Origin: a virus
Direction: 5' to 3' (one strand)
IMG/VR virus record: IMGVR_UViG_3300017963_000020
Location: 1 to 64,000 of that record
Length of the DNA stretch: 64,000 nucleotides
The notes beneath the pieces are model-generated. The model saw only the letters and a list, made by a program, of their open reading frames with translations. It had not been told where the DNA came from and did no database searches. Positions 12,265 to 60,792 of the stretch are shown here, piece after piece. A program made the translations under genes and the position numbers. Position 1 is the stretch's first letter. Each line of letters begins with the position of its first letter.

Positions 12265-12495
12265 TCATCCGCGCTCTATTGACCGTTCCTTCCAGTCCAG
12301 AGCCTTCTTGCCGTCTTCGGTGAACGAAAAACAGTCCCCGCCATGAGCGAGGATGAAACCTTCGGCCATAAGCCATTCGGACCATCGCCAGACACGAGTC
12401 GCAGTCAGCGGATCAAGCCGAAGCGACGGCAGAGCGAGGCGCACGACTTCTTCTGCTGTGTATTTGCCGTCGTACCTTGCCCTCTCTTCCGCCAT
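12265..12495 (-). CDS. Hypothetical winged-helix-like protein, 76 aa
   Basis: ATG 12495 is preferred to longer starts because the upstream part overlaps the zinc-ribbon gene. The pattern [13 protein letters not shown]...TRVWRWSEWLMAEGFI...DGKKAL resembles a small winged helix (helix-turn-helix followed by a beta-wing). This is a pattern impression, not a firm family call. Confidence 0.45.
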   Translation of the reverse strand: MAEERARYDGKYTAEEVVRLALPSLRLDPLTATRVWRWSEWLMAEGFILAHGGDCFSFTEDGKKALDWKERSIERG

Positions 12496-12652
12496 TGAAA
12501 CCACCGAGTAGAGTCCTAAATCGCCTCGCTCCACAATGATCGCAAGTGTAGAACAGTCGCAAACCCAAAGACGTCGTCGTGTCATTGATGGAGCGCGACG
12601 TCCATCGCGTTATCCTTCCGCATTCAAAACACCATTCGCCCATGATCAGCAT
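12413..12652 (-). CDS. Zinc-ribbon protein with basic tail, 79 aa
   Basis: CFECG near residue 9 and CDHCG near residue 37 form a zinc ribbon; the last 30 residues are Arg-rich. It overlaps the following gene by 83 bases, so its true C-terminus is less certain than its zinc core. Confidence 0.45.
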
Positions 12653-12930
12653 GACTGAACACCGAACGTCTTGAAGAAAACGACCTTGTCCTTTTTCTTT
12701 TTGGCTTTGACCATTCTTTCGAATGTAGCAGCTCCAGACCGCGTCATGTTCTGCCTGATAGCAACGAGATGAACTGGAGATCTGCCTCTGGTATATTTTG
12801 CCCCTTTGCCCTCATTATGCTGTTTCAGTCTCCTTCCCATGTCGTTCGTGATTCCGCAATAATACGTCCCGTCTGCACAGAGCAGAAGATAGCAGGACCA
12901 ATCGGTATTCTCTTTTCGTTTCTTTGTCAT
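12646..12930 (-). CDS. GIY-YIG nuclease-like protein (YhbQ/UPF0213 type)
   Basis: A 94-residue single-domain protein with [19 protein letters not shown] (the GIY-YIG core), the Arg of GRRLKQHN, the [15 protein letters not shown] segment typical of the YhbQ/UPF0213 branch, and the Glu of ATFERMVK. These are the conserved positions of the fold. The small stand-alone members are structure-specific or repair nucleases, or uncharacterised. It is free-standing rather than fused to an intron or intein, so homing is not implied. Confidence 0.75.
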
Positions 12931-13238
12931 GGTGTATTAAGCCTCCGCGCTCGGGCGGACTTGGTCGCGCCCGAGGCGGAAGATGGCTCTTTAATTCAGG
13001 TCCCGTGGGATGCCCGACTGTAGAAGTTCATTCCTGCTTCAAATCAAAGATGCTCCCGCGATGGGGAGTGAGGTTCACTAAAGAAATCCGCTCGTATAGA
13101 ATCTCAGGCCAGACTCATCGCTCTGCGTTAGGGGTCCTCTGTGGCTCCGGTCGCCGGATGCAGTCGGGCGACAAATGAGGAGCATGACCTCTCTCCAGGA
13201 GATCGGGACAAAGCCCGACAGCAGCTCGAGCAGAATGA
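12931..13238 (-). other. Non-coding stretch with hairpins between speD-like and GIY-YIG genes
   Basis: About 300 bases with no convincing gene. A strong hairpin (CTCGGGCG at 12950-12957 with CGCCCGAG at 12968-12975, extended by TCCGC/GCGGA) sits just before the GIY-YIG start. A second small hairpin (TCGGG/CCCGA, 13201-13216) follows the speD-like stop. A 55-codon frame starts at an ATG overlapping the speD-like stop (ATGCTGA) but has no SD. It could hold a structured RNA or termination signals. Confidence 0.4.
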
Positions 13239-13592
13239 TCAGCATGGAAATCGGCCAGTCTCGTCTTGGAAAACGACTTCGCCGTTGACCCTGTCAAGTA
13301 TGAATTGCATCGCGTTCTCCGCCTTCGCTCGTTCTCCACAAGTGAAAGCGTTCAACGCGAGCTTCCCTCCCTCGGTGTAGTAATGTGCAGTCAAGTGAGA
13401 TTCGTCAAGCAAGATTGCGACCGTGAAGCCAGGAGGCGAGCCATTCTCGCCGAGGTCTACTGCGACTTCACCGACGACTGTCGCTCCGGCGAATCTAGCT
13501 GCCTCCTTCAAGAGGCTTTTCGCCCTGACCGCATTCGCGATGAACGGTGATTTCGCGCCGATTAAATCAACCCGAATCTCCTTTCCCCTCAT
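13239..13592 (-). CDS. speD: S-adenosylmethionine decarboxylase (SpeD) family protein
   Basis: The start at ATG 13592 gives 117 residues, the size of the short prokaryotic proenzyme. ESHLTAHYYTEGG contains the self-cleavage Ser after Glu and the processing His; NAFTCGERA holds the catalytic Cys, and GATVVGE lies before them. In this family the chain cuts itself at Glu-Ser to make a pyruvoyl group that decarboxylates S-adenosylmethionine for spermidine synthesis. Some phage-encoded homologues are known to act on arginine or ornithine instead, and the substrate cannot be told here. No spermidine synthase is visible nearby. It lies beside groES in a structural operon. Confidence 0.8.
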   Translation of the reverse strand: MRGKEIRVDLIGAKSPFIANAVRAKSLLKEAARFAGATVVGEVAVDLGENGSPPGFTVAILLDESHLTAHYYTEGGKLALNAFTCGERAKAENAMQFILDRVNGEVVFQDETGRFPC

Positions 13593-23047: not shown

Positions 23048-23120
23048 CAGAAGAAGGGGCTTCGGTCGCTTTCGGATGAGGAGCACTCTACCTATCGGCG
23101 ACCTCCACTCCAGGGCGAAT

Positions 23121-23486
23121 GGAGTCGGTGGGAATCGAACCCACGTCCAGCTCAGGGATCCATGGTCCATCTACGATCGTAGTCGGTTCTTTTCAGCTAC
23201 CGACAGCCTATCCCGTTCTTTCCACGAGCAAGTCAACCCGAGTTAGGGTCGGTGGGATTTAACCGACCTGAGTTCCTAACGGCGGTTCATCCAAGGCCGG
23301 AACGCTCCTCGGTGAACCGGAATGGTCAAGCGACCATTCTGGCGGTCATCGCCTCGCCAAAAGAGGCGGGACGAGCGACCTGTCGCTTTTCATTGGCGAT
23401 TGAATTTGATTGTTCGCTCCTTGACGCGGAAGCATACGGATCGCAGGATTCACTTCACCTCTGCCTGTCGAGCCCTTTACGACCCC
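23121..23486 (-). ncRNA. ssrA: Transfer-messenger RNA (tmRNA)
   Basis: A 366-base one-piece tmRNA. The 5' end reads GGGGTCGTAAAGGGCTCGAC followed by AGG, the tmRNA-specific D-loop signature. The 3' end reads GGACGTGGGTTCGATTCCCA and ends CGACTCC, so the acceptor stem pairs GGGGTCG with CGACTCC (one G-U) and the T-arm is GTGGG/CCCAC around TTCGATT. CCA is not encoded. The best tag frame resumes at GCC (23397) after TCAATC: 23 codons, ANEKRQVA... ending TARMVA, with the TGA at 23326-23328 on a hairpin (GAATGGTC/GACCATTC), as in helix 5 of bacterial tmRNAs. A second frame beginning GCG-AAC-AAT is possible. tmRNA rescues stalled ribosomes; a phage copy could retune tagging. Confidence 0.88.
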
Positions 23487-30880: not shown

Positions 30881-31801
30881 TCATCTATCCAAACGAATTG
30901 TCAATGCGTCTGCGAGTGCATCCCAGTTCCTATGTCTCATTTCCAAGCTACGGATCAACGTCACCATGACGTTCACTTCAACGATCCGCTTACCCTTGAA
31001 GCTTGCTACCAATCTCGAGAACGGTTTCTTAAAGCCATTCCCAAGCTCCGAAGGCTTCCTACATATCTTGACCAGTTTGAAAGCAAGGTTGACCGTCTTA
31101 ATATGTTTCCCGACTGCCCGTATATAAGGCTTCGCACTCGTATCGTCTAAGACATCCTTGAGCGTTGGATATCGCTTGACGATTTCTATTGCCCTCTTCT
31201 CGCCGATGCCAGGAACTCCAGGGATGTTGTCGCCCTTATCGCCCATCAATGATTTCGCCTTTATAAATTGGTTCGGCGTGATACCGTCATACATATCGGC
31301 GAACTCCCTCGTGTCTACCATCTGGTCATTGATAGGCCGGAACACAGACACAGAAGGGCGAACAAGCTGAAGAAGGTCTTTATCTGCAGATACAATTAGG
31401 ACCTCTTGTTCCTTTGCATAATAGGCCGACAAGATGCCCATCATGTCGTCGCCTTCTACTCCCTTCAAGACTGCCTGTCGCACGTTCAGCGTCTTGAAGA
31501 ATTTTCTGGCTTGACGCATCTGCACAAAGAGGTCCTTCCGTTCCTCTTTGGCTTCTTTCCGGTTCGCCTTGTATTCCGGGAACAGACCTTTCCTCAACGC
31601 TGAACCTTTCGTGCTGTCCCAGCATATAATCAGCCTGTCGTACTGGAATCTCTTATATAGGTTCTTGAACATCTGTAGCATCCCAGAGATGACAGATGTT
31701 TGGATTCCCGTAGACGTTGAAAGGCTCCTCGTCGCGTATGCTCGAAAGGCAAAGAAGTTCCCATCGATCAGAACGACCAGTTTTCTATTCTTCCTCGCCA
31801 T
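30881..31801 (-). CDS. 5'-3' exonuclease / flap endonuclease
   Basis: A 306-residue protein of the T4 RNase H / Pol I exonuclease-domain family. The N-terminus VVLIDGNFFAFRAY, CWDSTKGS, KGVEGDDMMG, IVSADKDLLQL and LMGDKGDNIPGVPGIGEKRA (the H3TH helix-hairpin region) give the full set of acidic metal ligands and DNA-binding elements. It should remove RNA primers and flaps for the DnaE polymerase encoded in the same cluster. Confidence 0.85.
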   Translation of the reverse strand: MARKNRKLVVLIDGNFFAFRAYATRSLSTSTGIQTSVISGMLQMFKNLYKRFQYDRLIICWDSTKGSALRKGLFPEYKANRKEAKEERKDLFVQMRQARKFFKTLNVRQAVLKGVEGDDMMGILSAYYAKEQEVLIVSADKDLLQLVRPSVSVFRPINDQMVDTREFADMYDGITPNQFIKAKSLMGDKGDNIPGVPGIGEKRAIEIVKRYPTLKDVLDDTSAKPYIRAVGKHIKTVNLAFKLVKICRKPSELGNGFKKPFSRLVASFKGKRIVEVNVMVTLIRSLEMRHRNWDALADALTIRLDR

Positions 31802-37231: not shown

Positions 37232-38353
37232 TTAAGAAAATTGTGACTGAATATATTGCCTCGTCGCCTGGAGAAGTTCTCGTTTGGCTTTCTTGTCTTG
37301 TCGGATGGCCTTCAAGAATCCCTTCTGGCCTTTTCCTTTCACATCGCCAAACGAAAACGACGACCCTTTCCTTTTGATTACTTTCCCCGATTTCGCCCAC
37401 AGAAACACTTCGGCAGCTTTGTTGATTCCCTTGCCGAAGGTGATGACGAACTTGCCCACGTTGAAGGGCGAACAAATCTTGGACTTGACGACCTTCGCAT
37501 AGGTGACATTCGCCACCGACCTCTTCTCCTTGACGTTCTTGACCTTTTCCTTTTCGGTTTTCCTTCGGCGGACCTCGATCCGAACAGATGCGTAGAACTT
37601 CAACGCCTTTCCGCCCGGAGTAGTCTTGCCCTTACTGAACCCACCGATCTTGTCGCGCTCCTGGTTGATGAAGACGACCAGGACCCCATTCTTATTCGCG
37701 ACAGCCACGATCTTCCGCATCGCCTTAGACATGAGCCGAGCTTGTGCAGCTACAGTGATGTCTTCCATTTCCCCGTCAAGTTCTGCCTTCGGGACGAGGG
37801 CAGCTACACTATCCACGACGATGCACTTGACCTTCTTGCTGAGGATTAGTTTCTGGACGATGCTTAGAGCCTGTTCCCCATAATCCGGCTGAGAGAACAG
37901 GAGTCCCTCCATATCAACGCCGATCAGGCCAGCATAATCGGGATCAAGAGCGTGTTCAACGTCAATGATCGCCCCGACGTTTCCTTGCCTTTGAGCGTTC
38001 GCCAAGATGTGGAGGGCGAGGGTAGTCTTGCCCGACGACTCAGGACCGTACAGTTCCACGACTCGGCCATAGGGCAGACCGCCTCCACCGAGCGCACAAT
38101 CCAAGGAGATTGATCCCGTGGAGACTCGGGGACCGGGTTCAACCTTCATGTCCCCGAACCTCATCAAGGAACCCTTCCCATATTTCTTTTCAATCCCCTG
38201 GATGACCGTTAGCAGGTTTTCATCACCAGCTGAGGTCGTCGTCCTCGTCTTCTTCGTCGTCGTCCCGTCTGCGCTTTTTCTTCTTCTTTTTCTTTCCTTT
38301 GTCTTTCCCTTTTTTCTTTTTCCTTTTTCTCGGACGCTCTTCTTCTTCTTCAT
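37232..38353 (-). CDS. recA: RecA recombinase with basic N-terminal extension
   Basis: The RecA core is complete: GKGSLMRFGD, Walker A LYGPESSGKTT, IDVEHALDPDYA, Walker B IVVDSVAALVPKAEL, the Gln-switch region AQARLMSKAMRKI, FINQERDKIGG and TTPGGKALKF. ATG 38353 has GGAGG nine bases upstream, but the start lies inside the acidic-tail gene, overlapping it by 131 bases in the +1 frame. The first about 45 residues are then a Lys/Arg-rich stretch. No ATG, GTG or TTG occurs between there and the normal RecA N-terminus, so this or a later ATG (which would delete the polymerisation helix) must be used. Confidence 0.85.
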   Translation of the reverse strand: MKKKKSVREKGKRKKGKTKERKRRRKSADGTTTKKTRTTTSAGDENLLTVIQGIEKKYGKGSLMRFGDMKVEPGPRVSTGSISLDCALGGGGLPYGRVVELYGPESSGKTTLALHILANAQRQGNVGAIIDVEHALDPDYAGLIGVDMEGLLFSQPDYGEQALSIVQKLILSKKVKCIVVDSVAALVPKAELDGEMEDITVAAQARLMSKAMRKIVAVANKNGVLVVFINQERDKIGGFSKGKTTPGGKALKFYASVRIEVRRRKTEKEKVKNVKEKRSVANVTYAKVVKSKICSPFNVGKFVITFGKGINKAAEVFLWAKSGKVIKRKGSSFSFGDVKGKGQKGFLKAIRQDKKAKRELLQATRQYIQSQFS

Positions 38354-38936
38354 CGTCCTCGTCCTCCTCGTCCTCTTCATCATCCTCATCGTCGTCATCG
38401 TCGTCTTCGTCGTCTTCGTCCTCGTCATCTTCGTCGTCATCGTCGTCTTCGTCATCCTCGTCTTCCTCGTCCTCCTCCTCTTCGTCGTCCTCCTCCTCTT
38501 CCTCCCGACGCTTCTTCTTCTTGCCCTTTTTCTTTTTCTTCTTCGGGCGTTCTTCCTCTTCGTCGTCGTCCTTCCGTTTCTTCTTGCCCTTGAAGATTTC
38601 GTCCACCTTGCACTTCGGTGAACCGTCGTCGTTGACCGCGTCGGTGTGGACGACCGAGATTCTGCACCGATCGCCGATGAGATCGCCGATGTCGAACTTG
38701 CCTTCCTTGAACTTCAAGTCGGGAATGAGCTTCTTCAGCCATCTTCCCAGCTTGTTTTTCGGACGAGCGTCCATCTGCGTCCAGGCAGTCAGAATCGTTC
38801 CCTTTTGTTTCCCCTTGATGATCTTGAATTTCCACCTTAGCTGTGGACCGTATTTCCCCTTGTCCTTTTCGATGTCCGTGATCTCTGCAAGGTAGATATC
38901 CTCCGGGATAGAGACTCCCTTGCTTTTCTTGGACAT
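38223..38936 (-). CDS. OB-fold ssDNA-binding-like protein with long acidic tail
   Basis: ATG 38936 gives 237 residues. Residues 10-110 look like an OB fold of a phage ssDNA-binding type: PEDIYLAEITDIEKDKGKYG followed by 'QLRWKFKIIKGKQKGTI', 'WTQMD', 'GDLIGDRCRISVVH'. The last about 115 residues are blocks of Asp/Glu and blocks of Lys/Arg, and the protein ends DEDDDLSW. An acidic tail with a terminal aromatic residue is a hallmark of SSB proteins (for example T7 gp2.5 and bacterial SSB) that recruit partners. It lies directly upstream of recA and downstream of the clamp genes. Triplet-repeat codons encode the acidic region. Confidence 0.6.
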   Translation of the reverse strand: MSKKSKGVSIPEDIYLAEITDIEKDKGKYGPQLRWKFKIIKGKQKGTILTAWTQMDARPKNKLGRWLKKLIPDLKFKEGKFDIGDLIGDRCRISVVHTDAVNDDGSPKCKVDEIFKGKKKRKDDDEEEERPKKKKKKGKKKKRREEEEEDDEEEEDEEDEDDEDDDDDEDDEDEDDEDDDDDDEDDEEDEEDEDDEEEEERPRKRKKKKGKDKGKKKKKKKRRRDDDEEDEDDDLSW

Positions 38937-38956
38937 CGGGATCCGAAGCCTCTTGG

Positions 38957-39250
38957 TCACGACTTGCCTCCTTTCTTCTTCTTCTTCTGGAGCTCTTTTG
39001 CTTCCGCAATGAATTCCTCTATGTCCTCGCCGACCAGGAGTCGGCATTCTTTCATGAGCTTCCTTGCCGTCTTCCTTACCTTCTCCCGGTTCTTTTTCGA
39101 ATCCGAGCTAAGGATTACAGGCTGGGACAGCCAAGTATGGAAGCGAACGGTATGGAATCCCTTGAGGAGCACGTTCTCCTCAAAACCCTTCTTGACGATA
39201 ACGACCCTTGGAATGAACTTTGTCAACGCTTTGATCAAGCTATCGAGCAT
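38957..39250 (-). CDS. Hypothetical protein, 97 aa
   Basis: Alpha/beta N-terminal half, then a helical C-terminus ending KKKKKGGKS. It lies between the clamp-loader and SSB-like genes, so a replication role is possible. No family recognised. Confidence 0.5.
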   Translation of the reverse strand: MLDSLIKALTKFIPRVVIVKKGFEENVLLKGFHTVRFHTWLSQPVILSSDSKKNREKVRKTARKLMKECRLLVGEDIEEFIAEAKELQKKKKKGGKS

Positions 39251-39251
39251 A

Positions 39252-40112
39252 TTATCCTCCCATCGCTTTCTTGATCTGTATGAACGCGGATATGAGCTGC
39301 AGGGTTTTGACGCAACCTAATCTAAATCGTGCATCACATTCGGCAAGGATAATCACGACCCTCTTGTTTCGTAGGCTCAGGGCTCCATCCACTAATAGTC
39401 TAAAGACATAGTCTGGATCTATCTTATGAACACGCTCTATGAACTCGCCGACGTCCATGGAATATATATCGTCGATCGGCTCTGCCTCAATTTCTAAACC
39501 GTTCTTGACTCCCTCAAGTATATTTAACATCTTTCGAGCATCGCCATTCGATTCCAGGATGACGACCTTGAGTTTGCTCAGGCTAATATCAATCTCCTCC
39601 TTGTTTCTAACATCGTCAGCCAATTTTCTTAGAGCCTTGTTTTTAATCGGCCTGAACTCGTACTCTGTGCATCTTGAAGCGATGGGGTCTATAATCTTCT
39701 CAGGATAATTGCAGGATAATATGAAACGACAATTCTTATACGACGTCTCCATCAGCCGACGAAGAGCGTGTTGAGCATCTTTGGTGATTGCGTCTGCTTC
39801 ATCAAGGAAAACAATCTTGAACCCGTGGAAGCTTTGCGTGTTCGCAAATTCCTTGACCCTATTTCGTATGACATCAATCCCCCTGTCGGAACTTGCATTG
39901 AGCTCAAGGAACGACCCCTTCCAATCTTCGCCGAAGAACTTCCTTGCGATAATGGTAGCAAGGGTCGTCTTTCCTGTTCCGGCAGGACCAGAGAACAGCA
40001 GATGCGGAATGATGCTGTTCTTCTTTATATACTTCGCGATCGGCTTGACGATATGGTCCTGCCCGATTACTTGTTTGAACAGCGTCGGCCTATATTTTTC
40101 TACGAACATCAT
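39252..40112 (-). CDS. Clamp-loader ATPase, RFC small-subunit type
   Basis: A 286-residue AAA+ protein. MFVEKYRPTLFKQVIGQ (the RFC box), GPAGTGKTTLA (Walker A, about 41-50), IVFLDEADAITKDAQHALRR (Walker B), LSCNYPEKII and SRCTEYEF (the arginine-finger SRC motif) are the signature of eukaryotic/archaeal RFC small subunits and T4 gp44, not of bacterial DnaX. The start pair ATGATG is ambiguous by one codon (40112 or 40109). It should load the clamp at 40661-41398. Confidence 0.88.
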   Translation of the reverse strand: MMFVEKYRPTLFKQVIGQDHIVKPIAKYIKKNSIIPHLLFSGPAGTGKTTLATIIARKFFGEDWKGSFLELNASSDRGIDVIRNRVKEFANTQSFHGFKIVFLDEADAITKDAQHALRRLMETSYKNCRFILSCNYPEKIIDPIASRCTEYEFRPIKNKALRKLADDVRNKEEIDISLSKLKVVILESNGDARKMLNILEGVKNGLEIEAEPIDDIYSMDVGEFIERVHKIDPDYVFRLLVDGALSLRNKRVVIILAECDARFRLGCVKTLQLISAFIQIKKAMGG

Positions 40113-40657
40113 TCCCCCTTCTTTTTGAAACGATAGTAGAACCGCATTCGCCAAGAATAGATCGGCTCGAAGTGTGAAATTAGCAGGTGAATGATCTTGG
40201 TATCCACGACGTATAGGTAACGGTCTATCGTGTTTAGCAGGTCGCGGTTCTCATCATCATCCTCTGCTATATTGCCCATCATCCATTTCAATAATACTTC
40301 CAAAGGAGGCTTCCATTTTTCCAGCTCTCTAAAGACACGATCCCTGTCTGTATCAGTGAATATAAGCTGGAGCAGATGGAATATGTTCAGAGTTCGTGTT
40401 CCGCCTGAATCTTCTATTTCATCTACAAGATTTTTCACCTTGTCGTATCTGTCATACGAATTAGTCCTCAAGTCCAGATCAACCTTGCACTCCTTTAGCA
40501 AAGCCTTGAGTTTTCGCATATCAAGGCGACCCTCGTCAATGTCAATCAAGAACCTGCCCTTGACGAGCTGTTGAGCCTTGAGTTTATTAACAGAGAGGGA
40601 GGACAGCGTGATGCTGTCCTCCCTTCTCTTTGTGTCGCCGATAAGGAGGCGAATCAT
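40109..40657 (-). CDS. Probable second clamp-loader subunit (gp62-like)
   Basis: A 182-residue helical protein with no ATPase motifs. It starts between the clamp and the RFC-like genes, the T4 gp45-gp44-gp62 neighbourhood. The segment LNIFHLLQLIFTDTDRDRVF followed by 'RELEKWKPPLEVLLKWMMGNI' resembles the collar helices of clamp-loader subunits (delta/RFC C-terminal). Function is inferred from position plus this pattern, so it is tentative. Confidence 0.45.
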   Translation of the reverse strand: MIRLLIGDTKRREDSITLSSLSVNKLKAQQLVKGRFLIDIDEGRLDMRKLKALLKECKVDLDLRTNSYDRYDKVKNLVDEIEDSGGTRTLNIFHLLQLIFTDTDRDRVFRELEKWKPPLEVLLKWMMGNIAEDDDENRDLLNTIDRYLYVVDTKIIHLLISHFEPIYSWRMRFYYRFKKKGE

Positions 40658-40660
40658 GGC

Positions 40661-41398
40661 CTATTCCTCCTTCGTCATGAGCAGATAGTAGGAGCGGAGG
40701 CCGTCCCCGAACCTGATCAGCATCGGAGGATTCTTTTCCAGGTAGATCTTCACCCGTCCTTCGACCGTTTTGAATATCTCCTTGATGCCGTGCCCGAACA
40801 TCACGGACATCCCTTTCTTCAGGTCGCTCTTGCTCGTGTCCAGCTTCGTCGTGAAGGAATTCTTCCCACGTTCGACCACGACCTTGACCATTTTCTTTTC
40901 GACGACGAAGATGTATGTATGCTCCCCGAGCAAGTCGGCGTCCCCTGTGATCTCCCTGAGCTGGCTTGCATCCGCGATGAAATTGTTCGTCTTGTATTGC
41001 AGCTTCAAAGTCGGCGTCACGACCTTGTTCTTTTTCACCTTGACAACGGAGGCCTTCTGGTAGGAGTCCACCGACTTCAATGCCGTCACTTCGAACCGAC
41101 CGATCTTTCTTCTTTGCCGGACGACCAGCTGTTTATCCGACGACGTGATTTTCACCATGCCGTCGAACCGAGAAAGGATCTGCCTGAAAACCTGGATATT
41201 ACCGATGATGAACTGTCCAGCCTCTTCGACCTTTGCCTCGCCGACTACATTGAAGTAGATCGCTCTCGCAGTATCCAGACCGCAAGACACGAGGTTCCCG
41301 TCTTCGGCGTCTACGACGCAGTCCAAGACAAGGCCATCGAGATTGACCTTGGACAGGAATGAACTGAACGCCTCCGCTTCCACTTTTATTTCGGCCAT
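40661..41398 (-). CDS. Sliding clamp, PCNA/gp45 type
   Basis: A 245-residue protein, the PCNA length (bacterial DnaN is about 370). The pattern of two similar beta-alpha-beta halves (residues 1-115 and 125-245), IGRFEVTALKS between them, and the basic residues expected on the inner ring surface fit a two-domain processivity clamp. It sits between the clamp-loader genes and DnaE. Identity is inferred from length, two-domain pattern and position; individual contact residues cannot be assigned. Confidence 0.7.
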   Translation of the reverse strand: MAEIKVEAEAFSSFLSKVNLDGLVLDCVVDAEDGNLVSCGLDTARAIYFNVVGEAKVEEAGQFIIGNIQVFRQILSRFDGMVKITSSDKQLVVRQRRKIGRFEVTALKSVDSYQKASVVKVKKNKVVTPTLKLQYKTNNFIADASQLREITGDADLLGEHTYIFVVEKKMVKVVVERGKNSFTTKLDTSKSDLKKGMSVMFGHGIKEIFKTVEGRVKIYLEKNPPMLIRFGDGLRSYYLLMTKEE

Positions 41399-41904
41399 TA
41401 TTTCGTCCTCCTATGTTCGGCTTCCAAACTCTTGTTCGCGTTCTCCAGAGCGTCCAACAGCTTGTTCACTCTGTGCATGACGTATTCGAAAACCCGAGCG
41501 AGCTCTGTGGCCTTCGCCTCGCGCATCCTGTGCTTCTTGCATCTCTTCTCGGCTTCAGCCTGGACCAGCTTGTCCGTGACTCGATCCACGTCTTCCATGC
41601 CGTTCAATCGTATATCAACCTCCTCTTCTGCGATCTTTGCCTTCCTGTTTCCGTATGCCTTGTTCAACCCTCCTTCTGCCCGTCCAGCCTGAACAGCAAG
41701 AAAGACGTTCATCGCAGCTAGATTGATTTGATCCCGGGATAGGATATCCTTTTTGAAAGCCGACACCATGTCGGCAATTCCCATCCCCTGATACTTGCCG
41801 ACAAGCTTCAGGATCTTTTTCAGGAACCTAAACTCGTTCGGTTTGTTTTGGAAATCTTCCCAATCGATTTCCACGGGTTTTATATCAGACCTCTTCTTCG
41901 GCAT
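41398..41904 (-). CDS. Hypothetical helical protein, 168 aa
   Basis: Predicted all-helical, with charged segments and a C-terminal coiled-coil-like part. It overlaps the clamp start by 1 base and the polymerase stop by 25. It may be a replisome accessory, but no family is recognised. Confidence 0.5.
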   Translation of the reverse strand: MPKKRSDIKPVEIDWEDFQNKPNEFRFLKKILKLVGKYQGMGIADMVSAFKKDILSRDQINLAAMNVFLAVQAGRAEGGLNKAYGNRKAKIAEEEVDIRLNGMEDVDRVTDKLVQAEAEKRCKKHRMREAKATELARVFEYVMHRVNKLLDALENANKSLEAEHRRTK

Positions 41905-44900
41905 GACTTATCCTCCATCAGCTCGCCGATCTTTTTTGTTATGTCAAAAACCTTGTCCTTTTCCGCATAGCACAAGATCCGATTCGTTCCCATGACTCTA
42001 CCATTGACAAATAGAATGTTGAACGGTTTAAGTATCGGCAGGAATTTCTCCTTCGCGCCTTTGTCGAAGTAGATGAACATATCGCCACGATGGTCCTGGA
42101 GCTTTACTACCATCGCGGACTTCCCTGACATTTTGATTTCTACGTTCAATATGATTCCAGATACATTGACACGTTCCCATCTATCGAATTTCTGTAGCTG
42201 TTGAGATGAGACGCAGTACCTTCCAAGCAAATATTCCTTCACAGGTTCAAAGAAGAACGGATGCAGAAGTATGAAACCGAATGCGTCTACCGAATCCTCT
42301 ACGAATGTTTTCTTCAGGGTAAATACTTGATCCTTCCGCACACTATTGAACGTTCGCTTGATGGTATTGCGGTCTGCGAAACAATCAAAGCATCCTGCCT
42401 GAATGAGTGCGACGACCTTGCCCTTGTGGACCTTCCCGCTGACCTTGTTCATGAAATCATTAAAAGAACTGAATGGCTGTTTCGACACGATCTCTTCGGC
42501 CGTCGGCCCCTTGATGCCTTTGATTTTGGATAGGCCGAAACGAATGCCCTTCTTTTCAATGCCGAACCCGATGCCCGACCTATTGATGTCCGGCCCGAAT
42601 ATCTTTAGTCCATACTGTCTTGCCTCGTTGATGTATCTATAAAGCTTATTCTTCTCAGATCCATGCTTCCTATCCTTTATCGTTCCTGTCGCTGTGTTAG
42701 AAAGGAGCGACACGAAGAATGGACCGGGATGATAGTTCTTCAAGAATAGAACCTGAAAGAATAGGTAAGCATACGAAACGGCATGACTCTTATTGAACGA
42801 GTACTGTGTAAATTCGCCAATGATATCCCAAAGCCTTTTCGCATCGTCGCGCCCGATACGTTCGGCGCATCTCTTCATGAACTCCTTCCTGAACTTCTTT
42901 GCCTTCCTTTTGCTGAATATTTTCTTTGCAGCTAGCTTCCTGATATTGTCTGCTTCTACCAGCGAATACCCTGCTATCTTGTGCAACAGACGCATCACCT
43001 GTTCCTGATACACAAGAACGCCCCTTGTTTCTTTCAATGCCTTTTCAATCTCGTCGTTCTCTATTCCCATTCCTTCATGATTATGGAACCGCTCTACTGC
43101 TCCACTCGCCAAAGGACCAGGACGGTTGATAGCATTCAAGGCAGCTATTTCGTAGAAGGTTCTTGGCTTAACCTTGCGAAGTAGCTTAGTCGCCGAATCA
43201 GTTTCAAACTGGAATCCGCCCGTCGTATTGCCCTTTCGAGCCTGATTCAGCAGCTTCTCGTCTGTCAAGTCAAGATCCCAGATCGATTCAGTATGGTCTT
43301 CGCCCTCGTGTTCCTTGACCAAATCCAAAGCATCGCTGATAATGGAACAAGTATTCAGGCCAAGGATATCAAATTTAATAAGCCCAATCTCTGTCAGCTC
43401 CCTGCCTTTGAACCCTTCTGAATATGCAGATACGATATCGCCTTTGACACGCTGAAGCGGAGCAAACTTATAGACAGGCTTCGGGGCAATGATTAAACCG
43501 CAAGGATGCACTCCTGCATTCCTAATCATTGTCGCGACTCGTCTTGCTACCCTGATCTCCTTCTTATGTTCATCCCAGAAATCTAATAGCAATCCAGACA
43601 GGTCTTTCCGTGCATCCTTCAACGAGCCAGTCCTATAGACTGCCGATGCGATTTCATTTATTGGTCGCTGAGGAAGCTTGAATACCCTACCGACATCCTT
43701 GAGAGCACCGACCTGACCGAACGTGCCGAAAGAAATAACCCGAGCGACTTTATTGTGTCCATACTTGTCTGCGATATAGGCCAAGACCCTGTCCCGTTTG
43801 TTTGCATCAAAGTCAAGGTCAATATCCGGCATATCTACTCGGCTCTCGTTCAGGAATCGCTCGAAGATCAATCCATGTTTGATGGGATCGATTTTCGTAA
43901 TCCCCAAAACAAAAGAAGCCAGAGACCCGGCGACCGAGCCTCTGGCTGGACCGACAAAGATGTCGTTCTGTCTACACCATGACACGAGGTCCTTGACGAT
44001 TAGGAAATAGTCGTGGAACCCGAGCTTGGATATAATCTTCAGTTCCTTTTTCAATCTCCGCTCGTATATTGGCGTCTTCTTATAGAAATGGAACTGTTTG
44101 AATTCATGCTTGACCATCCGCTTGAATTCTGAATGGGACATTCCCATATCAGGCAAGTGAAATGAACCTGTCGGTATTTCAAGGTCGCATTTATCAGACA
44201 CTTCCTTCGTTGATCTAATTAGACGTTTGAATTCTGCCTTCGTATAATTAAATCCGAACTCGCTCGCTTTCTGCCAGAGCTCTTTCCCAGTCATTAAATA
44301 CAGAGACCGAGCCTTATATGCGACCTCCTTCAAGCGATCGACATTCTTCTTGTCCCTTACGAGTAGGACGAAGTCTTGTATTTGTATATCCTCAGGATGA
44401 ACATAGTGTGCATCCAGGGTCGGCAATACTTTCACGCCGACCTCTTCTGCTACAGATACGAGCATAGCGTTGACGGGCTTCTGTCCTGCTATTTCGTTGA
44501 ACTGGATTTCAATATAGAAATCATTTCCGAATCTATCCTTCCATTTTTCGGCCTCGTGTCTAGCTTGTTTTCGGCCTCGTGTCTTTGCAATGATTCCTCC
44601 CATGCAAGCCGAAGACACTATGAGGCCTTCTCCATGCTCGAATATCTTCTCTGTCGTCGTCCTTGGCCTATAATAAAATCCATTGACATAGGCTTCAGAC
44701 ACGATCTTTAGCAGGTTCAGATATCCTTTGTAATTCTTGGCGAGAAGGACGACGTGCCGATATTGTTCCTTCCTGCTCTTTGAATCGTCAACGTATGCTT
44801 CAACGCCGACGATAGGGTTGATTCCTGCCCTCTTGCACTCAAGATAGAATTCAAGCGATCCTGCGAGCGTACCGTGGTCCGTGATCGCAAGGGAAGGCAT

Positions 44901-44993
44901 ATCAAGGTCGGCAGCTCTCTTGACCAGAGGCTTGATCTGAGCGCAACCATCCAGGAGTGAGTAGTGAGTATGTTGATGCAGATTCACGAACAT
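41880..44993 (-). CDS. dnaE: DNA polymerase III alpha subunit (DnaE family)
   Basis: A 1037-residue C-family polymerase. The N-terminal PHP domain has FVNLHQHTHYSLLDG, LAITDHGTL and the VEAYVDD element. The palm has the catalytic MPDIDLDFDANKRDRVLAY (about 388-405) and IKFDILGLNTCSII (third Asp, about 540). A helix-hairpin-helix follows, and a C-terminal OB-fold segment (VSGIILNVEIKMSGKSAMVV) is present near 940. It is shorter than the 1160-residue E. coli enzyme, mainly at the C-terminus (no obvious tau-binding domain). The phage therefore encodes its own replicative polymerase, used with a non-bacterial clamp. Confidence 0.92.
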   Translation of the reverse strand: MFVNLHQHTHYSLLDGCAQIKPLVKRAADLDMPSLAITDHGTLAGSLEFYLECKRAGINPIVGVEAYVDDSKSRKEQYRHVVLLAKNYKGYLNLLKIVSEAYVNGFYYRPRTTTEKIFEHGEGLIVSSACMGGIIAKTRGRKQARHEAEKWKDRFGNDFYIEIQFNEIAGQKPVNAMLVSVAEEVGVKVLPTLDAHYVHPEDIQIQDFVLLVRDKKNVDRLKEVAYKARSLYLMTGKELWQKASEFGFNYTKAEFKRLIRSTKEVSDKCDLEIPTGSFHLPDMGMSHSEFKRMVKHEFKQFHFYKKTPIYERRLKKELKIISKLGFHDYFLIVKDLVSWCRQNDIFVGPARGSVAGSLASFVLGITKIDPIKHGLIFERFLNESRVDMPDIDLDFDANKRDRVLAYIADKYGHNKVARVISFGTFGQVGALKDVGRVFKLPQRPINEIASAVYRTGSLKDARKDLSGLLLDFWDEHKKEIRVARRVATMIRNAGVHPCGLIIAPKPVYKFAPLQRVKGDIVSAYSEGFKGRELTEIGLIKFDILGLNTCSIISDALDLVKEHEGEDHTESIWDLDLTDEKLLNQARKGNTTGGFQFETDSATKLLRKVKPRTFYEIAALNAINRPGPLASGAVERFHNHEGMGIENDEIEKALKETRGVLVYQEQVMRLLHKIAGYSLVEADNIRKLAAKKIFSKRKAKKFRKEFMKRCAERIGRDDAKRLWDIIGEFTQYSFNKSHAVSYAYLFFQVLFLKNYHPGPFFVSLLSNTATGTIKDRKHGSEKNKLYRYINEARQYGLKIFGPDINRSGIGFGIEKKGIRFGLSKIKGIKGPTAEEIVSKQPFSSFNDFMNKVSGKVHKGKVVALIQAGCFDCFADRNTIKRTFNSVRKDQVFTLKKTFVEDSVDAFGFILLHPFFFEPVKEYLLGRYCVSSQQLQKFDRWERVNVSGIILNVEIKMSGKSAMVVKLQDHRGDMFIYFDKGAKEKFLPILKPFNILFVNGRVMGTNRILCYAEKDKVFDITKKIGELMEDKSCRRRGLI

Positions 44994-45957: not shown

Positions 45958-46183
45958 TGTTCTTCCTTTCAATATCGGCCGAATGTATTTTCCTGGCGAT
46001 CAGTTTGATTGCCTCCTCTTCATCTTGGTTCTTGATCACGTCAATGATCTCGTTCAAGTCCTCCAGATAAATGTAATGACGATGCTTTGGCTGTTCGCCT
46101 CTCGCAATGATGTCCACTTCGTCCAGGGATATCCGCTTGAAGATGTTCGGATATTCCCGAACCAGATCGATCGAGCTAGCCAT
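45926..46183 (-). CDS. Hypothetical protein, 85 aa
   Basis: ATG 46183 follows AAAAGGAGGCG. Alpha/beta, acidic, with a short helix-turn-helix-like start. It overlaps the sigma-like gene by 8 bases. No family recognised. Confidence 0.5.
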   Translation of the reverse strand: MASSIDLVREYPNIFKRISLDEVDIIARGEQPKHRHYIYLEDLNEIIDVIKNQDEEEAIKLIARKIHSADIERKNNGEARKDADA

Positions 46184-46808
46184 CGCTCGCCTCCTTTTCG
46201 ACAAGCATTTTCAGAAAGGAATAGATGGATCGGGACTTCCTATACAGGCTCATAGCTGAGATTCCCATTTCTTTTGCAAGATGTTTCAGAGGCGAGTTCG
46301 GGTCCCGATACATTTTCCAGTAGATGCTCCACGATTCCTTCGTCAACCGTTCCTTGAACAGGTCAAGGAAATCCCCGACAAGGATTTCATTGAAGATGTC
46401 CTGCCCTCCGGGAATCTCGTCCAGTCCTACGGTATTCAACACTTCCCATTCCGTGAACGTGATGACAGGGATTCCAGCAGGGTCGCTCACCTTCCGCATT
46501 ATTTCCTTGACCATCGTACGGAACTTATTCGTTACAGCAATCCGGACGAGCGTCTTGAAGCCCGATACTTCGGGGTCGTATGCTGGGATGACCTTCATTG
46601 AGACATGGATGTAGGCATCCTGCATCAGGTCTTCTATGGTTCGGTCATGGAATAGATGCGCGAACCTATTCGCCACGAACCGAACCGTTGGATAGATTTC
46701 GTGGTAGATACGGGCGAAGGTTCTTTGCTTCCCCCGTTCCTGGTAGCGAAGGACAGCTCTATCCAGAGCAGTCGTCTTCCGCCTCCCCTTCTTCTTCTTT
46801 TCAGCCAT
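46176..46808 (-). CDS. RNA polymerase sigma-70-family factor
   Basis: ATG 46808 follows GGGAGGAGTG (210 aa). Region 2 is evident (IEDLMQDAYIHVSMKVIPAYDPEVSGFKTL, shown in part as LMQDAYIHVSMK; the D-L-x-Q-x-A-Y pattern and a following -10-binding helix). A C-terminal segment (LKHLAKEMGISAMSLYRKSR) is a helix-turn-helix of the region-4 type. Phage-encoded sigma factors of this size (such as T4 gp55) direct late transcription. The basic N-terminus is an extension. It is a candidate for recognising the repeated CATATT leader, by inference only. Confidence 0.65.
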   Translation of the reverse strand: MAEKKKKGRRKTTALDRAVLRYQERGKQRTFARIYHEIYPTVRFVANRFAHLFHDRTIEDLMQDAYIHVSMKVIPAYDPEVSGFKTLVRIAVTNKFRTMVKEIMRKVSDPAGIPVITFTEWEVLNTVGLDEIPGGQDIFNEILVGDFLDLFKERLTKESWSIYWKMYRDPNSPLKHLAKEMGISAMSLYRKSRSIYSFLKMLVEKEASDG

Positions 46809-46812
46809 CGGT

Positions 46813-47442
46813 TCACTCCTCCCATCCGAAAATATAGTCATCACGGAATCTGATTCCGTAGTAAGCAAAGAAGGCAGCTACTTTCTTTCTTCTCCGATTT
46901 AGATATCGCCGATAATGCTTGGACGATTTCTCATTCGGTGTTAGCCTCGCCCTCTTGCTTCTTTTCTTGTAGAACCTATCGCAGACGCGACAGTCCTGTA
47001 TATGTTCTGAATATGTTTTGATCTTTGGAACCTTCAGGCAGGGTATTTTTCCACTCTTACCCTTTCTGACTGCCTTTATCCTTGAATCATGCTTCTTGAG
47101 TATTTGGTTTGTCCTGTATAGACGACAAGCTGGCCTATCAAGGAATAGGTTGATGCAAGTATCGAGGTCGCCGAAGAACTTGCATGACCAGCATCTGTAG
47201 ATCGCCTCCGGTCCTTTACGCTCATACGACTTGCCCTTCTTCTTCGTTCCTTCTTTAGCTGCATCGTGACGGGCGAAGACAAGGGATATGGTCGCTGTGA
47301 GCCTGAGGCAATCGCGCTCCATCTCTTCAACGATTCTTTTGGCCGTCGTTAAAGACCTGGAGTTCCCATGCGATAGGAGGAGTTCTACTGTGTATGCTTG
47401 AGCGGATAGGCGAGTCGCCTTTTGAAATATGTTCCGCTTCAT
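46813..47442 (-). CDS. Cys-rich basic protein, 209 aa
   Basis: Three Cys groups (CWSCKFFGDLDTC, CRLYR, CRVCDRFY) and many Lys/Arg suggest a zinc-binding nucleic-acid protein. Adjacent to the sigma-like gene (4-base gap). No family recognised. Confidence 0.5.
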   Translation of the reverse strand: MKRNIFQKATRLSAQAYTVELLLSHGNSRSLTTAKRIVEEMERDCLRLTATISLVFARHDAAKEGTKKKGKSYERKGPEAIYRCWSCKFFGDLDTCINLFLDRPACRLYRTNQILKKHDSRIKAVRKGKSGKIPCLKVPKIKTYSEHIQDCRVCDRFYKKRSKRARLTPNEKSSKHYRRYLNRRRKKVAAFFAYYGIRFRDDYIFGWEE

Positions 47443-57085: not shown

Positions 57086-58129
57086 TCAAGACGATCGGCA
57101 CGACTCAGTAGAATAGGGTATTTTTCGGTCGTATTTAGCCGAGAATTGCTCCCGATTGCAGTCACAAGGGTCCTTCCCCTTCGGAAGCCTGATCCGATGC
57201 AGATCGGTCTCAGGGTATAGCAGCTCGGTCGCACGTTTCCATCCCTCATCTCCACCATCATCCGCGTCGTATGCTATGCAGACCGAATCGAAATGTTCTG
57301 CAAGGAGATCGGCTTGATCCTCTGTCATGCTGGTAGAAAACGTCGCGACGCAAGGATGGCCGAACTGAACGATCTTCAAGGCATCCCAGATTCCTTCTGC
57401 TACCACGACCTCACGACACGATCCTGCAAATATGTTCAGGCCGAATAGATACTTGCCTATCTTTGAACCCTTCGGAAACCATTTCTCAGAGTTATCTATC
57501 GGGTTCTGTGCAAAGAACGTCATCCATTCGCCGTGCTCATTCAGGATTGGAATTATGATCTGCAGTTCCCCGCGATAATATCCAAGGCCGATCTGGAAGT
57601 CCTGGATGATCCGTGCGAGCCCCTGCCGTTCGAACTTCCTTTTCTTATTCTTGATCATGTATTTTGCTATGAACTCTGGGTCTTCTATCATCGGCGGAAT
57701 GTAATGGCTTTCTTCGTCGTCATCGCCTTCGATCTTCGGCCCTTCAAGAAGCTGAGCCATCTCCCTGTCAAGGACTCCCTGGGAATAGATGCTTCCGCCG
57801 ACGCTGAATTCTTTAAGGATGCCGAGGGCATGGCTGAAGTCGCATCCTTCCATCAGCATTATGAAATCAACGATCGAACCCTTTCCGCATTTCCAGCACT
57901 TGTAGAATCCGTTCCACTTCGTTCCCTTCTCATCTACCATCCCGAACGACGGTTGATGATCCGGTCCTCCATGGCTGTCAAGGGGACACGATCCGTTGAT
58001 GTATCTGCCCGATCGCTGAAGGTTCCTGACCTTGTAATACTCCAGGATCCGTTCGATATCTGCGTTCTTCTTAAGGCTCTTAGCATAGTTTCGACGCTCT
58101 AGCTTTCTTCCTGCTACGTTTCTTTCCAT
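57086..58129 (-). CDS. DnaG-type primase
   Basis: Start at ATG 58129 (347 aa). The N-terminal CHC2-like zinc finger reads CPLDSHGGPDHQPSF...FYKCWKCGKGSI (about 43-85). The Toprim domain has EVVVAEGIWDALKI (Glu motif) and VCIAYDADDGGDEGWKRA (DxD motif). It lies two genes downstream of the helicase and overlaps the glycosylase gene by 50 bases. It is shorter than cellular DnaG and lacks the C-terminal helicase-binding domain, which is normal for phages. Confidence 0.85.
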   Translation of the reverse strand: MERNVAGRKLERRNYAKSLKKNADIERILEYYKVRNLQRSGRYINGSCPLDSHGGPDHQPSFGMVDEKGTKWNGFYKCWKCGKGSIVDFIMLMEGCDFSHALGILKEFSVGGSIYSQGVLDREMAQLLEGPKIEGDDDEESHYIPPMIEDPEFIAKYMIKNKKRKFERQGLARIIQDFQIGLGYYRGELQIIIPILNEHGEWMTFFAQNPIDNSEKWFPKGSKIGKYLFGLNIFAGSCREVVVAEGIWDALKIVQFGHPCVATFSTSMTEDQADLLAEHFDSVCIAYDADDGGDEGWKRATELLYPETDLHRIRLPKGKDPCDCNREQFSAKYDRKIPYSTESCRSS

Positions 58130-58706
58130 GGACACGATCTCCAATCCGCTTCCAATCTTCTTTCGCCATTTCTTTGAATTCAGGGTTCCTTCCTATCGCG
58201 GATGGATGGTACGAGACATAGATCAGCGATTCGAAGCTGTGTTCCCTATGCTTTCCCCATCCTCTGTTCGCCCTGATGCCTTCCACGTTCTTCAACGCGA
58301 ACAAGGCAGAGTTCCCCAGAACGATGATGAGCTTTGGCTGGATGATGGACAGGGTTTTCATCAGCCTTGGAGCACACCGAATGATCTCTTCTTCTGTCGG
58401 CTTATTGAATCCTCCATTAGGATTTCTTCCTGGATAACAAAGAACGGTATTCATGATGAACGTGTTATTCCGTTCAAGGCCAGCGATCTTGAGTAGCTTG
58501 TCAAGAATGGTTCCTGCCTTCCCAATGAACGGATCGCCTTCCATATCTTCTTCAGGTCCAGGAGCCTCTCCGAGGATGACGATGCGTTTATTACAGGCTC
58601 CGCGACCAAAGACCATACGATCTCTCGTGGTCGCGTTTCCGCAAAGCTCGCAACCCTTCATCCTGCTCTTTAGCTTCTTCAGCTCTCTAAGCTTAGAACG
58701 CTTCAA
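58080..58706 (-). CDS. Uracil-DNA glycosylase, family 4
   Basis: A 208-residue protein (TTG start with GGAAGGAGC). Motif 1 VILGEAPGPEEDMEGDPFIG then KAG, motif C YHPSA, and four Cys (CELC near 19, LC near 89, RC near 109) for the 4Fe-4S cluster are all characteristic of family-4 enzymes. It removes uracil from DNA and is often found in archaea, thermophiles and large phages. Here it sits with the helicase and primase. Confidence 0.85.
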   Translation of the reverse strand: MKRSKLRELKKLKSRMKGCELCGNATTRDRMVFGRGACNKRIVILGEAPGPEEDMEGDPFIGKAGTILDKLLKIAGLERNNTFIMNTVLCYPGRNPNGGFNKPTEEEIIRCAPRLMKTLSIIQPKLIIVLGNSALFALKNVEGIRANRGWGKHREHSFESLIYVSYHPSAIGRNPEFKEMAKEDWKRIGDRVHGKKRSRKKARASKLC

Positions 58707-59421: not shown

Positions 59422-60792
59422 TCAATCCTCTCCTTTCTTTCTCTTCTTTTTCTTTTTGCGTTTCATGCTCGGGTCATTCAGCCGGATCAACCCGAAGTTC
59501 GGTATGACCTCAATGAATTCTCGCGTCTTGCCTTCGCGAACCTTCATGAATTGAATCTTTGCCCGAGGAGGGTTCCGTAGTCTCATGGCCTTCGTTTGGA
59601 TAATCGCGAACAGGCAGTCGGCATTCTGGGATAGAGCCTGTTTAGAGATGGCGATATCGCGGATTTCCAGCTCTTCTTTGCCCTCGGCTTCGGGTTTGAG
59701 CTGTCCTGCGGAGACGATTGGGATGCGTCGTTTCAGGGCAAGGTTCTTCGTTTCCCGAACGACGATTGCTTGGGGTTGCCAATCAACGGAGAGCGAGTCG
59801 CGAGGAGTGTGAGAAGAGGGGACCATGTTTTGCATATAGTCTATGAATATGATATCGGGCTTGAACGCGATCTCTGTCAACTTGCTGTCAATAGCAGCTG
59901 ACGAGCATCCATCGTGCATCCCGATAATCTTTAGCCTGTTCTTCCGTAGCTCCTTAATAGACGTCTTCCATTTCTTTAGATCTATATCGCGCATCGTAGG
60001 AGGCTTCTTGAATTTATTATGCCGAACCCTGGAGATGCGCGAGTCCATGCGGAAGGCAGTCTGTTTCGCTGTCATCTCGTTCGTTACGAACGCGACTCTC
60101 CTGCCGAGTTCAACAGCCATGAAGACCGCCTGATCCTGCATACATATAGATTTCCCGCCCGAAGTCTGGGCGACGAATATGATCAGGTCTCCAGGATTGT
60201 ATCCTGCCGTCTGGTCGTCGAACCGACTATCAATTCCTGATTCAATGCCCCTTGCGAATTCTGGATTCAGTCGAGCCTTCTTTATGTACTTCAGTCGTTC
60301 CTTCCAGTCGCCTCGCAGATCAAGGACTTCCACTTCGTGCTGTTCCGTTGATCTGGCTTGCGCGATGCCGTCAGCCAGGAATTCGCGAACCATGAATGGG
60401 TTCCCGCTTTGCGTGAAGATATCTTTTGCGTTGATGAGGAGCTGCTGTATATGCCTTGAATGCTCGCACCGATTTAATTCTTCGACAAGATAGTCGGTCA
60501 TCTTGGCCGACACGTCCATCCCGCGAAGCCTTCTTACAAGCCGACGCAGCTTCTTTTTCGTCGGCGAGTCCTCTTCCGATTCGCTCACCTTCGTTAAAAG
60601 AATGTCGGCGTTGATCGGGGCGAAATACTTGTACTGATGGTCGCGGATAATAACGAATATCTTCCGCGTCATTTCGGAGGAGAAAGTATTTGCACTCAAC
60701 TTCTGTAGGATTTCTGTCTTGTTCAGCCGTCTGGATTTTAGCAAGAGCGCAAGGACTTCCTTCTCCTTTTCAACGTCACGATAATTGATCAT
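59422..60792 (-). CDS. dnaB: Replicative DNA helicase, DnaB family
   Basis: A 456-residue protein. An N-terminal helical domain (1-130) is followed by the RecA-like ATPase domain with FVAQTSGGKSI (Walker A, about 207-216), the TNEM region, DIIFIDYMQNM (Walker B, about 310) and VSAGQLKPEAEG. The length and order match hexameric helicases of phages. It starts the replication operon after the terminator at 60896. Confidence 0.9.
   Translation of the reverse strand: MINYRDVEKEKEVLALLLKSRRLNKTEILQKLSANTFSSEMTRKIFVIIRDHQYKYFAPINADILLTKVSESEEDSPTKKKLRRLVRRLRGMDVSAKMTDYLVEELNRCEHSRHIQQLLINAKDIFTQSGNPFMVREFLADGIAQARSTEQHEVEVLDLRGDWKERLKYIKKARLNPEFARGIESGIDSRFDDQTAGYNPGDLIIFVAQTSGGKSICMQDQAVFMAVELGRRVAFVTNEMTAKQTAFRMDSRISRVRHNKFKKPPTMRDIDLKKWKTSIKELRKNRLKIIGMHDGCSSAAIDSKLTEIAFKPDIIFIDYMQNMVPSSHTPRDSLSVDWQPQAIVVRETKNLALKRRIPIVSAGQLKPEAEGKEELEIRDIAISKQALSQNADCLFAIIQTKAMRLRNPPRAKIQFMKVREGKTREFIEVIPNFGLIRLNDPSMKRKKKKKRKKGED

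Follow-up and report, generated by a model that had tools for sequence, protein, structure and literature searches.

Replication by DnaE with the beta clamp (bacteria) and by PolB or PolD with PCNA (archaea and eukaryotes) is regarded as the work of two separate packages. Phage T4 uses an operon-encoded set of PolB (gp43), a loader ATPase (gp44), a small non-ATPase partner (gp62) and a two-domain clamp (gp45). The haloviruses HCTV-1, HVTV-1 and HCTV-5 carry a virus-coded archaeal RFC/PCNA system, together with their own PolB and a full RFC-L, and have archaeal hosts. Another group of phages, infecting Streptomyces, Mycobacterium, Bacillus, Moorella and Saccharomonospora, encodes a C-family DnaE, and no RFC-type loader was found in the five isolated DnaE phages that were tested. 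RaK2-like jumbo phages and Atu_ph07 combine an RFC/gp44-type loader with pieces of Pol III alpha (PMC7824862, PMC6102473). In these jumbo phages, however, PolB is the main polymerase, and Pol III alpha is present in a minimal, split form.

Here we analysed a window of 64,000 nt (IMGVR_UViG_3300017963_000020, positions 1-64,000), which probably contains a tailed-phage replicase operon that joins a bacterial-type C-family DnaE to an archaeal/eukaryotic-type processivity system. The locus shares with archaeal RFC/PCNA the RFC boxes, the closest loader sequence, a predicted two-domain clamp of PCNA length and a match to the RFC-L lid and collar, but the RFC-L-like partner has no ATPase core and DnaE stands in the place of PolB or PolD. 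It shares with T4 a phage operon with an ATPase, a small non-ATPase partner and a predicted two-domain clamp. In contrast to T4, DnaE replaces PolB, the loader is only about 30% identical to gp44, and the clamp and the partner could not be aligned to gp45 and gp62 with the small profiles available. The haloviruses gave the best loader matches in the phage database (40%).

The genes run on the minus strand in the order dnaE, 168-aa gene, clamp, 182-aa gene, loader, 97-aa gene and acidic-tail gene (Table 1), and the positions given in a preliminary description of this DNA were all borne out. The 168-aa gene overlaps dnaE by 25 nt and the clamp gene by 1 nt, the junction between the 182-aa gene and the loader gene is ATGA, and strong GGAGG-like sites precede most of the starts. 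These tight junctions and ribosome-binding-like sites suggest that the operon genes are likely translated in the bacterial way and that their expression is coupled. The loader probably starts at the ATG at 40112, the TTG at 40154 being merely the longest ORF start. The last protein of the operon carries a very long Asp/Glu/Lys-rich tail ending in DLSW, and its ortholog in a related record (G001, see below) has a similar acidic tail ending in ELNW. The tail resembles the tip of bacterial SSB, and the protein may act as an SSB.

Table 1. Features of the 64,000-nt window discussed in the text.
Feature	Size	Position	Strand	Basis or remark
tmRNA gene		23117-23486	-	92.7 bits; long tag peptide of 23 residues
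5'-3' exonuclease gene		30881-31801		
Putative SSB-like protein		38223-38946	-	start approximate (ORF given as 38223-39047); phrog_3724, 4e-8
Conserved protein	97 aa	38957-39250	-	3' of the loader gene; G001 ortholog, 37%
RFC small-subunit-type clamp loader ATPase	286 aa	39252-~40112	-	NF001679, PDB, relatives, tree
Predicted RFC-L-like clamp-loader partner	182 aa	40109-40657	-	ortholog match to NF003229, hhalign
Predicted PCNA-type two-domain sliding clamp	245 aa	40661-41398	-	ortholog match, hhalign, Foldseek
Conserved protein, family unassigned	168 aa	41398-41904	-	overlaps the dnaE end; orthologs at the same place in relatives
C-family DNA polymerase III alpha (DnaE)	1037 aa	41880-44993	-	Pfam, PHROG, PDB, motif alignment
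Sigma factor		46176-46868	-	upstream of dnaE; phrog_1740, 3.6e-10; TIGR02937, 7e-8; orthologs in G001 and G002
Protein beside the sigma factor	209 aa	46813-47442	-	C-terminus YIFGWE(E/D) kept in all three relatives
DnaG-type primase		57086-58144	-	
Uracil-DNA glycosylase gene		58080-58706	-	
DnaB-type replicative helicase		59422-60792	-	

The polymerase had been called clearly C-family (DnaE/PHP), and Pfam, PHROGs, PDB and motif alignment all agreed with this. It matched PF07733 (6e-76), PF02811 (1e-45), PF17657 and PF14579 in Pfam, which cover the PHP, pol3_alpha, finger and HHH_6 domains together with a weak OB match, and it also matched phrog_405 (9e-277) and Taq alpha in the PDB (9e-158). 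The PHP, Pol3_alpha, finger and HhH domains follow each other in the C-family order, and the catalytic PD(I/F)D(L/V)DF and the third Asp are present. These comparisons firmly identify the 1037-aa protein as a complete C-family DnaE whose PHP domain is intact. The motif alignment shows the aspartates for nucleotidyl transfer and also the metal ligands of the PHP domain, several of the latter being missing from E. coli. With both sets of residues intact, self-proofreading by this DnaE is plausible. The protein terminates shortly past the OB domain, and nothing in it matches the C-terminal domain of E. coli DnaE.

The loader contains EKYRP and SRC, as the preliminary description had noted, as well as the Walker A sequence GPAGTGKT and DEAD, and its best scores were to RFC-S models. 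It scored 273.8 bits against the archaeal RFC small-subunit model NF001679, whose curated cut-off is 303 bits, and 138 bits against the best gamma/tau model. Consistently, archaeal RFC-S reached 224 bits in the PDB search (1.6e-65 for A. fulgidus RFC-S), compared with about 60 bits for T4 gp44 and gamma. The identity was up to 54% with archaeal RFC small subunits and about 30% with gp44. The best 80 of 345 genome relatives, with a top identity of 54%, were archaeal throughout, in a set collected through motifs including haloviral RFC and thus biased towards RFC. A tree that included archaeal sequences and those of T4 type placed both phage loaders beside RFC-S of Woesearchaeota/Nanoarchaeota with support of 97/94. 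A placement on the T4 side was not formally rejected by the AU test (p = 0.06), so the tree position is no proof of archaeal origin. On the scores and identities, the loader is of the RFC small-subunit type, a firm identity, and archaeal-like rather than T4-like. The RFC likeness first proposed for it therefore stands and is narrowed to archaeal RFC-S, which is nearer than T4 gp44.

The clamp was identified through its orthologs, by comparing profiles and from the fold, because the window protein itself has no significant clamp-family match in Pfam, NCBIfam or PHROGs; a single weak PHROG of unknown function was its only match. The G001 ortholog matched the archaeal PCNA model NF002219 with E=4.4e-4, far under the curated cut-off. 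When the three phage clamps were compared as a profile with 22 archaeal PCNAs by hhalign, the two were collinear from end to end over 204 columns (E=0.0012), and none of 200 shuffles scored as high, with a low hhalign probability of 20%. The AlphaFold model was poor (pLDDT 38); the 50 best PDB hits listed by Foldseek were all PCNA, a result that counts as no more than support, given that a model of low confidence may be misleading. VIA-align on the same poor model gave Z values up to 6.2 to rows including both PCNA and DnaN domains, and the PDB search with the clamp profile gave chance-level matches, none of them a clamp. Against T4 gp45 the hhalign probability was 1.1, with small profiles in a comparison in which gp45 also fails against haloviral PCNA.

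Two clamp domains, a length of about 245 aa and a full-length PCNA alignment are thus found, with weak E-values and a low-confidence model. A DnaN clamp has three domains, about 366 aa and DNA_pol3_beta, whereas this protein has 245 aa and PF00712 was not detected in any of the three records. Taken together, the comparisons support a PCNA-type clamp, an assignment that is good but not firm and weaker than those of DnaE and the loader. The clamp of PCNA length that was first suggested therefore gains support from the ortholog match, hhalign and Foldseek, and no likeness to DnaN speaks against it.

Searched by itself, the 182-aa protein gave no meaningful match to any family. Its G001 ortholog matched positions 175-278 of 413 of the RFC-L model NF003229 (E=1.1e-3), and the two-sequence profile aligned with 19 archaeal RFC-L by hhalign in the same region (E=1.2e-4), with none of 200 shuffles as high and a low hhalign probability of 55%. 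The AlphaFold model was again poor (pLDDT 36). No AAA match was found, and the length leaves no room for an AAA+ ATPase core; with lid and collar only, the protein is RFC-L-like and not RFC-L. These results support, less firmly than for DnaE and the loader, an RFC-large-subunit-like lid and collar. T4 gp62 is a loader partner likewise used without an ATPase core. In role, the 182-aa protein would be the counterpart of gp62, although its small profile gave no match to gp62 (hhalign probability 0.2). The profile check proposed for this protein thus returned a weak match to RFC-L and none to gp62.

How DnaE may contact this clamp was examined in the three related DnaEs. E. coli DnaE carries QADMF between the HhH and OB domains. 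The segment between GxFD and HP has 77 residues in E. coli and 43 in all three relatives, in which the loop has lost about 34 residues relative to E. coli and contains no such motif, and no conserved copy of the canonical beta-clamp-binding motif (Q..[LMI][FL]), which is typical of bacterial replicative DnaE and not required for C-family membership, was found between the two domains. Other phages, such as the Moorella and Bacillus phages, have a shortened DnaE too, so the shortening alone does not prove a change of clamp. No conserved PIP box was found in DnaE across the orthologs, and no convincing PIP or beta motif was conserved at the protein ends across all orthologs. QVFTLKKTF near residue 900, put forward earlier as a weak PIP-box-like candidate, has the wrong spacing for the consensus and reads KVLDTNKTF in the G001 ortholog, and was rejected. 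We infer that DnaE would contact the clamp through neither the canonical beta-binding motif nor a PIP box, although a non-canonical beta-binding motif may be present. The 168-aa protein could, speculatively, be an adaptor. It has orthologs at the same position (57% in G001, 47% in G002), no family with a meaningful E-value in Pfam, PHROG or NCBIfam, and no profile match to gp62, RegA, gp45, PCNA or RFC-L.

Two further contigs of the lineage, IMG/VR 3300031578_000010 (G001, 90 kb) and 3300031566_000077 (G002, 47 kb), were the only ones found in scans of viral contigs, and scans of genome contigs gave no clamp relative. G001 holds the whole module, but inserted genes split the clamp, partner and loader genes. 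The insertions (L001:8744-12416), named by eye, comprise two DNA methyltransferase-like genes, a PLP-enzyme-like gene and an acetyltransferase-like gene. G002 holds DnaE, the 168-aa protein and the clamp, after which the contig ends. Along most of their length the three genomes keep a collinear order, and recurrence in such genomes means that the arrangement is no assembly accident. The dnaE of G002 is fractured (L007:9995-14418), with an N-intein-like end at FNK|SHA, an HNH endonuclease ORF at 12471-13397 and a C-intein-like start at 13384, and resembles a split intein that harbours a homing gene (E=0.0012 for Intein_splicing, E=5e-9 for HNH). Shortly past the clamp, QueD-, QueE- and FolE-like genes (L007:15921-17387, named by eye from translations) suggest deazaguanine DNA modification in G002.

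Among 50,697 phage records, 1372 matched DnaE, 2693 matched RFC/gp44 and 4061 matched the joined query, leaving about four with both, an approximate figure as thresholds were scaled to query length. Phage G is one of the phages with DnaE and an RFC-like ATPase, and was dismissed as a precedent because its ATPase is annotated as RarA-like; Desulfovibrio phage 7757 and phiW-14 (both PolB) and a Nodularia phage (PolA) were also dismissed. No paper describing a phage DnaE with archaeal RFC/PCNA was found in the literature searched, which was not exhaustive. The DnaE and PCNA/RFC pairing thus appears to be absent from the annotated phage genomes searched, and to be rare and unrecorded in phage replisomes rather than ordinary. 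None of the three records matched PolA, PolB or DnaN; the records may be incomplete, and a second polymerase may lie outside them. The preliminary proposal that this phage joined two systems is partly supported, by the operon pairing, its rarity and the lack of a PolB, PolA or DnaN match, with a loader that is nearer to archaeal RFC-S than to T4.

The window also encodes a bacterial-type RecA. Together with the tmRNA, sigma factor, DnaB and DnaG, it points to a bacterial host, and an archaeal host was set aside on the same genes. The YIFGWE(E/D) tail of the 209-aa protein is a candidate clamp- or RNA-polymerase-binding tail.

The operon structure suggests that the parts of the module work together. 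The loader would be assembled from the RFC-S-type ATPase in four copies and the ATPase-less, RFC-L-like 182-aa subunit in one. With ATP it would open the PCNA-type ring, presumably a trimer, and close it on primed DNA behind the DnaB/DnaG fork. The clamp would then tether DnaE as its client. We consider it probable that a C-family replicase is held in this way by a PCNA-type ring and an archaeal-type RFC with an ATPase-less large subunit, through a contact that is neither beta-binding motif nor PIP box and possibly runs via the 168-aa protein.

This reading has to be weighed against a T4-type module (gp44/62/45) in which the polymerase alone was swapped for DnaE and the loader retained more ancestral RFC sequence. 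Phages have been documented to exchange their polymerase (PMC11348598), and the gene set is T4-like, with loader, clamp, small partner lacking ATPase as in gp62, SbcC/D-like nucleases, UvsX-like RecA and sigma factor; the T4-side placement of the loader also survived the AU test. We nevertheless find it unlikely, as the loader resembles archaeal RFC-S far more closely than gp44 and falls with archaea in the tree, and the clamp and 182-aa protein align, on small profiles, with archaeal PCNA and RFC-L and not with gp45 and gp62. The PCNA/RFC parts might instead serve another process, such as repair or late transcription with the nearby sigma factor, while DnaE works by itself or uses the host's beta clamp. 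T4 gp45 doubles as a late-transcription activator according to PMC2988020 and PMC7892883. The gene for a sigma factor is located upstream of dnaE, and DnaE has no detected clamp motif. Such a separate role seems rather improbable given the tight overlap from dnaE to the loader gene, and the shortened, motif-free loop of all three DnaEs speaks against the host beta clamp. That the 245-aa protein is no clamp at all would fit its lack of family matches apart from the weak PHROG, and its low AlphaFold confidence. It is very improbable in view of the ortholog PCNA match, the end-to-end alignment unmatched by any shuffle, the PCNA hits listed by Foldseek and the adjoining loader gene.

If the parts do work together, copying enzymes from two domains of life are combined in one machine. 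The polymerase and clamp could then be re-paired across the bacterial/archaeal-eukaryotic divide, and how freely the polymerase-clamp contact can evolve would be directly testable with a handful of purified proteins. The ATPase-less RFC-L-like subunit, if real, would be a second, T4-like solution for building a clamp loader.
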